DNA from: Dyella lipolytica
GTDB taxonomy: Bacteria > Pseudomonadota > Gammaproteobacteria > Xanthomonadales > Rhodanobacteraceae
NCBI RefSeq assembly: GCF_030160075.1
Contig: NZ_BSNQ01000009.1
Location: 120,295 to 184,294, forward strand
DNA length: 64,000 nt
Reading direction: 5' to 3'
Shown here: positions 15,949 through 20,167 of the stretch, piece after piece
Layout: each line of letters begins with the position of its first letter
Position numbering within the stretch: position 1 is the stretch's first letter
Made by a program: the position numbers and the translations under genes
The notes under the pieces: generated by a model
The model's database searches: none
The model's input: only the letters and a program-made list of their open reading frames with translations
What the model was told of the DNA's origin: nothing

Positions 15949-16902
15949 TTAATACCGCTTGGCTTTGGGGTTGTAGTAGCTCGTATCGGTCGATTCGAGC
16001 AATTTGCGCATCGCCGGGCCGATGTGCTGAAAGCCGTGCGCGGCCAGCACTTCTTTCTTGCCCGGAATATCGTATTGACCTGTCACGCCCGGTCGCGGCG
16101 TGCCATCGGCCGGAATATCCGCTGGCCGCGGCAACTGTTCCGGCCAATGCTGGGCGTGCAGTGTCAGCTTGGGGCACCAATGACGATTGTCCGGATGCAC
16201 CGGCTCGCGCTCGGTGATGCCGAGAACCGCTTTTTTGCCGAACTCTTTCACGAACGCCTGATAAAAATCGTATTCCAGCGTGTTCTCGATCGTCGGCTGG
16301 ATCGCATCGAGCATCTTGAAGAAGCGCGGATCGTTGCGCGCAATGAAGAATTGCGTCGACAGTGTCTGCTTGCGTTTAATGCCGAAGTCGTTGCCGAAGG
16401 CGTTAAGCACTTTGGCGACACCCAGTTTCACTTTCGCGAACGGATGGCGTAGGCGACGCCACTGCGGACGCTGGTCGGTGCTCCAGGTCGACGCGGCCAG
16501 ATAAGCCTCCGGATGACGATCGAGCAGATCGATGTAGCGCTTGATGATGCCTTGATCGAAAACCCAGGTATCGGCTTCCACGTGAATCAGATACTGCGGG
16601 TTGTAAACCTCCACTGCCGCACGGCAAGACTGCTGCAGCAGATTCAAGGCGCCGTAGATGATGGTGCGAGGTTGGCAACGAACCAGCACGTCTTCCATGT
16701 GCGGCTCGTAGGTCACATCTGAGCAGGAATGAACGATCGGCCACGGCTCCGGATAGTTGAGCCTCACGATCTCCATATTGATGCGCGCGCAATCCGGACG
16801 CTCGTGATTGGTCATGCACACGACCGCCTTGGGCCGGGGAACCGTCGCTGCAGGATGCGGCAGACCGGCTGTCGCGATATCGACCTCGTTCCTCGTTTCC
16901 AT
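15949..16902 (-). CDS. Orphan glycosyltransferase-like protein
   Basis: A 317-residue soluble protein without signal peptide or membrane segment. The first half (PKAVVCMTNHERPDCARIN, then QYLIHVEADTWVFD, IIKRYIDLLDRHPEAYLAAS) has the layout of a GT-A glycosyltransferase: an N-terminal alternating sheet/helix region followed by an acidic EAD-T motif where DxD is expected. The C-terminal 80 residues are Pro/His rich. I do not recognise a named family. It precedes tsaB by 26 bases and may be co-transcribed. The function is tentative. Confidence 0.55.
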   Translation of the reverse strand: METRNEVDIATAGLPHPAATVPRPKAVVCMTNHERPDCARINMEIVRLNYPEPWPIVHSCSDVTYEPHMEDVLVRCQPRTIIYGALNLLQQSCRAAVEVYNPQYLIHVEADTWVFDQGIIKRYIDLLDRHPEAYLAASTWSTDQRPQWRRLRHPFAKVKLGVAKVLNAFGNDFGIKRKQTLSTQFFIARNDPRFFKMLDAIQPTIENTLEYDFYQAFVKEFGKKAVLGITEREPVHPDNRHWCPKLTLHAQHWPEQLPRPADIPADGTPRPGVTGQYDIPGKKEVLAAHGFQHIGPAMRKLLESTDTSYYNPKAKRY

Positions 16903-16967: not shown

Positions 16968-17235
16968 AGAGCCAGTCCTCATAGTCCACGTGGCCCGCGC
17001 CGGGATCTGTTTGCGCGCAAGACCAGGAAGAACGAGGGCGTGTATGTCGATACACAACCGAGTGATGACGCAGGATTGCGGGCAAACAGACCCGGCCCTT
17101 CGGGTTGTCGCTGAGTGGCCGCCATGCGGCAGCGCGCGGCTTGGCCTGACAGCCAGTCAGGCGCTGCGCCACGCACTACCACCTGACGGCCACTCAGCGG
17201 CAACGCGGGCCACGTGGACTATGAGGACTGGCTCT
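16968..17235. repeat. 268-bp nested inverted-repeat element (three-way-junction fold)
   Basis: This fills most of the 436-base gap before valS. The outer arms (16968-16999 and 17204-17235) are perfect 32-bp inverted repeats. Inside are two further hairpins. One joins 17000-17020 to 17076-17095, with one bulge and one mismatch, and carries a GTGTAT/ATACAC tip at 17040-17055. The other joins 17104-17121 to 17187-17204 (18 bp, one G-T wobble) and carries a CCTGAC/GTCAGG tip at 17145-17161. No convincing gene is present. I do not recognise the element. Confidence 0.8.
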
Positions 17236-17252
17236 TACAGACCCTCTACGCT

Positions 17253-17281
17253 TTGGCAGCCCAGCCGCTGACCTTTACAAT
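17253..17281 (+). promoter_or_regulatory. Sigma-70 promoter of valS
   Basis: TTGGCA (17253-17258) and TACAAT (17276-17281) are separated by exactly 17 bases, giving a start near 17288 and a 5' UTR of about 50 bases. That UTR contains a perfect 9-bp hairpin, GCGCCCCGG/CCGGGGCGC (17303-17323), ending 15 bases before the ATG. The promoter lies just downstream of the nested palindrome, so the palindrome is not part of this transcript. Confidence 0.65.
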
Positions 17282-17338: not shown

Positions 17339-20167
17339 ATGGAAAAGAGTTTCGAGCCCCGCCCGATCGAGTCGAAGTGGTATGCCCGCTGGGAAGCCAG
17401 CGACGTATTCCGCCCGTCGGGGCATGGCGAGCCGTACTGCATCCAGCTGCCGCCGCCGAACGTCACCGGCACCCTGCACATGGGCCACGCGTTCCAGCAG
17501 ACGGTGATGGACATGCTGATCCGCTACCAGCGCATGCGCGGCATGAACACGCTGTGGCAGGTAGGAACGGATCACGCCGGCATCGCTACGCAGAAGATCG
17601 TCGAGAACCAGCTCGCCGTCGAGAACAAGAGCCGCCACGATCTGGGCCGCGAACCGTTCGTCGAGCGCGTGTGGCAGTGGAAGGACGAATCCGGTTCCAC
17701 CATCACTAACCAGATGCGCCGCCTCGGTGTCGCCGCCGATTGGTCGCGCGAGCGCTTCACGATGGACGAAGGTCTGTCGGCCGCCGTGCGCAAGGTGTTC
17801 GTGGAGTGGTACCGCGCCGGGCTGATCTATCGCGGCAATCGTCTAGTGAACTGGGATCCGGTGCTGGGCACGGCGGTGTCCGATCTCGAAGTGAACAGCG
17901 TCGAGCGCGACGGGCATATGTGGTCGATCCGCTATCCCGTCACCGATAGCGACGAGAGCATCGTCGTTGCAACCACGCGCCCGGAAACCATGCTGGGCGA
18001 CGTTGCCGTGGCTGTACATCCGGAAGACGAGCGCTACCAACACTTGATCGGCAAGACGCTAACGCTGCCGCTGAGCGGTCGCCAGATTCCGGTCATCGCC
18101 GACGACTATGTCGATCGCGAATTCGGCACCGGTTGCGTGAAGATCACGCCTGCGCACGATTTCAACGACTACGCCATCGGCCAGCGCCACAAGCTGGCGC
18201 CGATCGAGATCTTCACGCTCGACGCGAAGGTCAACGGCAATGCACCGGCGAAATACCAGGGCATGGATCGCTACGACGCACGCAAAGCCGTGCTCGCCGA
18301 TCTGGAAGCGGCTGGCCTGTTGGTCGAAACCAAACCGCACAAATTGCAAGTTCCGGTGAGTCAGCGCTCGGACGCGGTGATCGAACCGATGCTTACCGAT
18401 CAATGGTTCGTCGATCTCACCAGCGACGCGCAGAAAGATGGACGTCCGGGCGGACGCAAGGCCATCACTGAACCTGCGCTCGATGCCGTTCGTTCGGGCG
18501 AGATCAAGTTCGTGCCGGAAAACTGGACCAGCACGTACACGCAATGGCTGGAGAACATCCAGGACTGGTGCATCAGCCGCCAGCTGTGGTGGGGACATCG
18601 CATTCCGGCGTGGTACGACGAAGCCGGCAACATCTTCGTCGGCGAGAATGAAGCCGACGCGCGCGCGCATGCCACTATCGCACCGGTCGGTGCTTTGAAG
18701 CAGGACGAAGACGTGCTGGACACATGGTTCAGCTCGGCATTGTGGCCGTTCTCCACGCTCGGCTGGCCCGCCAACGGTCCGGTGAAAAACGAGCGCGGCG
18801 ATATCGTCGCCCACTGGGAAACCGACAAGATTTTCCTGCCTAGCGCGGTGTTGGTCACCGGCTTCGACATCATTTTCTTCTGGGTCGCACGCATGGTGAT
18901 GGCGACCAAGTACTTCACCGGGAAGGTGCCGTTCCGCGAGGTGTACATCAACGCCATCGTGCGCGATGCGGAAGGCCAGAAGATGTCCAAATCGAAGGGC
19001 AACACCCTCGATCCGTTGGACCTGATCGACGGCATCGAACTGGAACCGTTGGTGGAGAAGTCCACCAAGTCGCTGCTGATTCCGCAGGTGCGCGAGAAGG
19101 TCGAGAAGCGTATCCGCAAGGATTATCCGAGCGGCATTCCAGCCATCGGTACGGATGCGCTGCGCTTCACCTTCGCCGCGCTGGCCAGCTACAGCCGCAC
19201 CATCAACTTCGATATCAAGCGCGCCGAAGGCTACAAAGCGTTCTGCAACAAGCTGTGGAATGCAGCGCGCTTCGTGCTGATGAACCTTCCGGAAGGCAAA
19301 CTGCCTGCCCCGTCGGGCGCACCGGCCACCGAAGCCGAACGCTGGATTCTCACCCGTCTCAAGCAAACGCTGGTCGACGTGGAGCAACACTTCACCAGCT
19401 ACCGCTTCGACCTGCTTGCGCAGGCGTTGTACGAATTCACCTGGAACGAGTTCTGCGACTGGTTCCTCGAACTGTCCAAGCCGGCGTTGAACGGCGATGA
19501 TGCGATAGCAGCCGCTTCAACGCGTCACACCCTGGTGGTTGTTCTGGAAACGGTGTTGCGCGCACTGCATCCGATCGTGCCGTTCATCACGGAGGAAATC
19601 TGGCAGTCGGTGGCGCCGAAGCTTGGCATCGACGCCGAAGGCATTTTGCACCGTTCGTGGCCGAAGGCTGGCGAGATTCCTGCCGACGAAGCGGCCACGG
19701 CCGAGATCGAATGGTTCAAGAACGTGCTTAGTGGCATCCGCCGCATTCGCGCGGAAATGAACATCGCGCCAGGCAAGACCATCCCGCTGCTCCTCGCCGA
19801 CGGCGATGCCAGCGATCGCGCACGTGCAGCCAAGTTCGCCGCGCAGATCAGCTTTCTCGCCCGCGTGGAAGCACCGCAATGGATCGAATCCGGCGCCCAT
19901 GAACCGGCGGCAGCCGCGGCCGTCGTCGGCTCGCTGCGTGTGCTGATTCCGCTCGCCGGGCTGATCGACCTCGGCGCCGAGAAAACACGTCTCGCCAAGG
20001 AAATCGCGCGCATCGAAAGCGAGATCAAGAAGTGCGAAGGCAAGCTTAGCAACGCCAACTTCGTGGCTAATGCACCGGCCGAGGTTGTGGCACAGGAACG
20101 CCAGCGTATTGCCGATTGGGGTACGCAGCTCACGGCGCTGCGCGAACAGATGCAGAAGTTGGGATGA
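17339..20167 (+). CDS. valS: Valyl-tRNA synthetase
   Basis: ValS charges tRNA-Val and edits misacylated threonine. The 942-residue class I enzyme shows the HIGH-type motif HMGH (47-50, within [13 protein letters not shown]), the CP1 editing domain with [17 protein letters not shown], the KMSKS motif at 548-552, the anticodon-binding domain, and a C-terminal coiled-coil arm ending in EQMQKLG. Length is normal. It has its own promoter; downstream is a repeat hairpin and not a recognisable holC neighbour. Confidence 0.97.

Follow-up and report, generated by a model that had tools for sequence, protein, structure and literature searches.

Introduction

The interiors of MITEs are usually treated as filler. 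Bacterial families such as NEMIS, RUP, ERIC and YPAL are described as non-coding elements of 70–300 bp bounded by terminal inverted repeats (TIRs) of 15–30 bp (PMC3733652). The GTAG-tagged REPs and REPINs, linked with RAYT transposases, are intergenic palindromes occurring in many copies (PMC3733652). Among complete insertion sequences (ISs), members of the IS427 group of the IS5 family (e.g., IS1248 and ISPpa6 of Paracoccus) are characterized by inverted repeats of about 13–21 bp, a length of about 830–865 bp and, for most of them, a 2-bp target duplication (PMC3281130). Here, we describe a nested palindrome found at positions 16968–17235 of a 64,000-nucleotide stretch of Dyella lipolytica DNA (hereinafter the window). 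It resembles NEMIS, RUP, ERIC and YPAL in size, TIRs, multicopy state, intergenic location and strong hairpins (PMC3733652), but differs from them in an interior that has been preserved from genus to genus, with most of its pairs showing compensatory changes, and in its modular build with arms following several different IS ends. With GTAG REPs and REPINs (PMC3733652) it shares the look of a many-copy intergenic palindrome, having IS5 ends instead of the GTAG tag and no link to RAYT genes. The element is ordinary in kind, being a MITE with IS5-family ends; what makes it unusual is the conserved, modular and covarying core.

Results

The element (268 bp, + strand) lies between two divergent genes, and the predicted palindrome with perfect 32-bp inverted ends enclosing two long imperfect hairpins was borne out in each of these respects. 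The left arm (16968–16999, +) and the right arm (17204–17235, −) are 32 nt long and 100% complementary, the latter being the exact reverse complement of the former; the first ~18 nt of the left arm represent an IS5-type terminal inverted repeat (GAGCCWG...), and the remainder belongs to the inner stem and is better conserved than the outer part. Hairpin 1 (HP1; 16999–17096, +), with an inner inverted repeat at 17003–17020/17076–17093 (89% complementary), is composed of a lower stem, an internal stretch with three tandem G·A motifs and an apical GTGTAT-GTCG-ATACAC stem-loop. According to alignment columns transferred by hand onto the window sequence, the tandem G·A/A·G mismatches of HP1 (17027–17068, +) oppose 17027–28 to 17067–68, 17030–31 to 17064–65 and 17034–35 to 17060–61. 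Hairpin 2 (HP2; 17104–17204, +), covered by an inner inverted repeat at 17101–17140/17168–17207 (80% complementary), contains five conserved C·A mismatches on the + strand, which are G·T on the − strand. Between HP1 and HP2 there is a mini-hairpin CCCNNNGGG (CCCTTCGGG in the window copy; 17096–17104, +), making the junction formally four-way. Folded as RNA, the element reaches −191.5 kcal/mol, a value that none of 200 dinucleotide-shuffled sequences attains (mean −110.5 ± 5.5; z = −14.7), and the DNA fold gives −110.7 on either strand (z = −14.7 and −14.9). Reading frames through it are short, as had been noticed originally, and a coding function was ruled out on the grounds of these short frames together with single-base length differences among copies in relatives. 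An Rfam scan of the window left the element without a match; the sole match belongs to an FMN riboswitch elsewhere (RF00050, 55355–55525, −, 96.8 bits).

The frame of the divergent gene starts at 16902 and the ATG of valS is at 17339, the element being located between the two. A good sigma-70 type promoter, TTGGCA-17-TACAAT (17253–17281, +), recognisable upstream of valS in relatives, lies just outside the element at a distance of 17 bp from its end, in keeping with the expected position upstream of the valS transcript. When the 480 bp preceding valS were inspected by eye in 15 genomes of the same genus, none contained the element, and in four of them the joined flanks are spanned by one alignment, these empty-site alignments being ~70–85% identical and too diverged to read a target duplication. 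The orthologous site is occupied in the window's genome and empty in these relatives, as for a MITE: the element is mobile. The family drops ready-made hairpins between genes of Rhodanobacteraceae, one of them landing here a short way 5′ of the valS promoter.

The palindrome belongs to a large MITE family found in Dyella, Rhodanobacter and relatives, and the assumption of a single-copy sequence, named originally as the outcome that would speak against it, is itself refuted by the search of this and related genomes. In the window's genome, matches to the HP1 half or to the greater part of the element occur at eleven places, and the HP1 covariance model likewise gives 11 matches there. As a DNA query, the element finds matches in 22 of the 41 genomes, the window's included, all of them inside its own family (22/25); the 16 genomes that represent the order's other families give none. 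The HP1 covariance model extends the family to 56 of 117 Rhodanobacteraceae genomes and 17 of 26 genera, with 34 candidates scored per genome, so that copy counts are to be read as “at least”. The named matches, among the best 80 of at least 114 stretches, come from Dyella, Rhodanobacter, Fulvimonas and MAGs labelled Lysobacterales. Among phages and plasmids nothing matched the element at an E-value cut-off of 1e-5, and a search of published literature, mostly outside subscription journals, returned no description of the family. Being short (268 bp), non-coding, multicopy and bounded by 32-bp TIRs, the element has the common attributes of a MITE. Lengths were compared over 79 loci, 3 partial copies being left out; the initial alignment comprised 74 of 76 copies, and the subsequent ones retained 56/74 (A1), 54/73 (A2) and 51/71 (A3), with exclusion mostly of G005, G006 and G015 near-duplicates of kept copies.

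The build of the element is modular and allows arms alone, arms with HP1, arms with HP2, or all parts together. Manual reading of one genome (G006) showed the arm pattern pairing up 20 times, which yields 10 full-length elements, an HP1-only form of 160 bp, an HP2-only form of 162 bp, a form of ~197 bp and seven forms of 51–90 bp with little beyond the two arms, while eight more arm matches are unpartnered; HP1-only and HP2-only forms were also read directly in sequence. The presence of gene cargo between the hairpins was considered and rejected, as inspection of half-matches revealed fragments or elements with just one of the two hairpins, and no gene-bearing form among them. Within the window's genome, two copies (L008 and L010) have the lower stem of HP2 wholly replaced yet still paired, and another one (L005) carries HP2 flipped in orientation and nearly perfectly paired.

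The outer ~18 bp of the arms are IS5-family inverted repeats. The arms were compared with eight IS ends found in relatives, some of which had been identified by screening the neighbourhood of transposases for ends of this kind. At a threshold of ≥14/18, 62 of 95 elements match at least one of the eight, against 0/95 for flank and 0/95 for inner controls, and 33 match none. Ends identical or close to element arms belong to L200 and L204 (GGGCGTGTTAACACTATA), L343 (GGGCCTGTTAACACTACC), L201 (GAGCCTGTTCACGATCTT), L355 (GAGCCTGTTCAAAGTCTC) and L354, the last being a pair of such ends around a transposase remnant in genome G017. Three G017 elements carry the L355 end letter for letter; of the 20 loci retrieved for this comparison, one (L414) is without recognisable arms. 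The L355 and L200 ORFs exceed the cut-off of NF033580 and match Pfam DUF4096 and DDE_Tnp_1, which identifies them as IS5-family transposases. The relatives' ISs with arm-like ends measure 818–855 bp and belong to the IS5 family by NF033580, agreeing in size and apparent 2-bp duplication with the IS427 group as tabulated for Paracoccus (PMC3281130); the element differs from ISs of this group in having no transposase gene, and its conserved structured core is absent from them. The sharing of TIRs with an autonomous element is observed at the family level; for the window's own arm type, GTCCTCATAGTCC, no partner IS was found. No IS5-family transposase was found in the window's genome (G000) or in G005, so the copies there look orphaned. 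Sibling palindromic elements of ~270–285 bp, which have different ends (GAGATGCTCTGA...) but a recognisable two-hairpin form, occur in the window's genome (L019, L022) and in G009 (L426); no partner IS was found for this family either. An IS expansion is seen in G002 (L169, L199 and others), with 18 Y1-transposase and 25 IS5-family DUF4096 matches.

The arms vary between subfamilies, each resembling the ends of a different IS5-family IS, while the core they enclose is shared. Divergence of arms and of core mostly goes together (r = 0.64; Mantel 0/2000), and in one genome two copies (L046 and L079) differ by 4% in the core but by 50% at arm positions 9–22, both arms having changed together. Six pairs pass the arm-swap filter, five of them involving L079, which amounts to one clear case and not to a rate.

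Elements of the GGGCC type sit at TA within YTAR targets, with TA on both flanks in 27 of 32 copies, mostly as CTA...TAG. For the GAGCC type, which includes the copy in the window, TNA/TNA flanks with an equal middle base are in weak excess (7/40 vs. 3.3 expected; 49 of 2000 permutations). These counts used 72 of 76 copies, the motif filter having skipped four, including the window's copy (L001), whose flanks read TTA/TTA. The gene context was assessed with a home-made gene caller for 184 distinct elements from 213 loci, 173 of them usable. Most copies lie between same-direction genes; the distribution over tandem, divergent and convergent contexts is not clearly different from background (p = 0.08), and copies in tandem contexts point with or against their neighbouring genes about equally often (58 vs. 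60). The distance to a stop codon is ≤20 nt in 101 of 154 cases, as expected for an element inserting at TA.

The covariation analysis proposed in the original prediction ran contrary to the refuting case named there, i.e., a lack of compensatory changes. In the 51 aligned copies 93.1% of cells pair and double changes are found in 78 of 105 pairs; cells changed on both sides number 725, where shuffles give 203.8 and slid partners no more than 96. Among 74 copies of the outer arm, three or four Watson-Crick types are represented at 14 of 21 pairs. Whereas pairing of the arms could follow from transposase binding at both ends, that of HP1 and HP2 cannot. Five of the six mismatch pairs in the tandem G·A/A·G motifs of HP1 are kept in 51/51 copies and one in 49/51, and a pair between two such motifs alternates between A-T (24) and G-C (23 of 51). 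At A3 columns 64 and 103, also between two tandem G·A motifs, A-T (30) is exchanged for G·G (19 of 51). In HP2, five positions are mismatched in 36 to 47 of the 51 copies, with C·A on the + strand and G·T on the − strand. Wobble pairs of the outer arms comprise 11 G·T and 13 A·C, while those of HP1 favour the + and those of HP2 the − strand; since the events are few, this strand preference was not used as proof.

Discussion

Taken together, these data make it very probable that the element is a MITE with IS5-family ends, moved in trans and possessing a selected modular folded core, mobilisation and the selective agent being the inferred parts of this reading. The suggestion of a MITE-like mobile repeat, one of those offered originally, is supported by the multicopy state, IS5-type arms, TA target and absence from the relatives' site. 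The outer arms are terminal inverted repeats of the IS5 family (NF033580-type transposases), which recall the IS427 group in size and in the 2-bp target duplication suggested by the GGGCC-type flanks, and most likely it is IS5-family transposases acting in trans that cut and paste the element at TA-containing sites, as its ends and targets suggest; landing sites would often be stop codons or places between genes. The core, a modular nested palindrome of HP1, mini-hairpin and HP2, is probably a cis-acting folded DNA or RNA that aids multiplication of the element, its pairing and few non-canonical motifs presumably being selected in propagating lineages, as covariation points to, and inserted copies would decay after landing.

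Several other explanations deserve consideration. Pairing might be kept by mutation instead of selection, if template switching between palindrome arms (quasipalindrome correction) copies changes across; this would yield double changes in every stem, as seen, and agrees with the wholly replaced yet paired HP2 stem of L008 and L010. However, the 53 closest pairs of copies (<5% different) show single-sided over double stem changes as 285:27, compared with 17190:39331 in 1856 distant pairs (counts for which no test is claimed, as the pairs overlap and are not independent), and the three tandem G·A and five C·A mismatches remain uncorrected, leaving this mechanism rather unlikely. Purifying selection in place also raises the ratio of double to single changes with distance, so these data separate template switching from selection better than they separate places of selection. 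If the element were a structured RNA with host function, transcribed on its own or as part of operon mRNA, its copies would be dispersed RNA genes or cis-regulators, in line with the strong covariation, the near-invariant tandem G·A motifs with covarying neighbours on the + strand and the prevalence of same-direction neighbours. We consider this quite improbable in view of the unbiased tandem-context orientation, the opposite wobble preferences of HP1 and HP2, uncompensated single changes as the main difference between the closest copies, and the absence of an Rfam match; of the structured ncRNA option proposed originally, a clearly constrained HP1 structure stands, while Rfam and orientation lend it nothing. 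The original alternative of a REP-derived sequence, taken here as a REP/REPIN-type element that a RAYT (Y1/HUH) transposase would move via folded single-stranded DNA, has in its favour the hairpin structure and PF01797 matches in 30 of 41 genomes, but PF01797 does not track copy number and was not found in G005, G011 and G013 despite their many copies, and the ends (AGAGCC/GGCTCT) match IS5 inverted repeats and bear no GTAG tag. With both the tag and the link to a RAYT transposase missing, such an origin is barely credible.

Returning to a MITE with a selected core, we infer that the structure is selected in still-jumping lineages and decays after landing, and is not selected for the sake of the neighbouring gene, because orientation is unbiased and most differences between recent copies are single changes that leave a pair broken. 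A bolder version, which we put forward tentatively and with more doubt than confidence, regards the core, HP1 with its three tandem G·A motifs plus HP2, as a structured parasite whose nucleic-acid fold itself is required for propagation and which switches between IS5-family transposases by swapping both terminal repeats simultaneously while the core is kept. If true, it would represent a MITE class with fitness dependent on secondary structure and with a built-in route to change the helper transposase. With an interior whose covariation over many genera is like that of a structured RNA, the family offers a way to test whether a non-autonomous transposon benefits from secondary structure in its multiplication, and equally how such an element changes its helper transposase.
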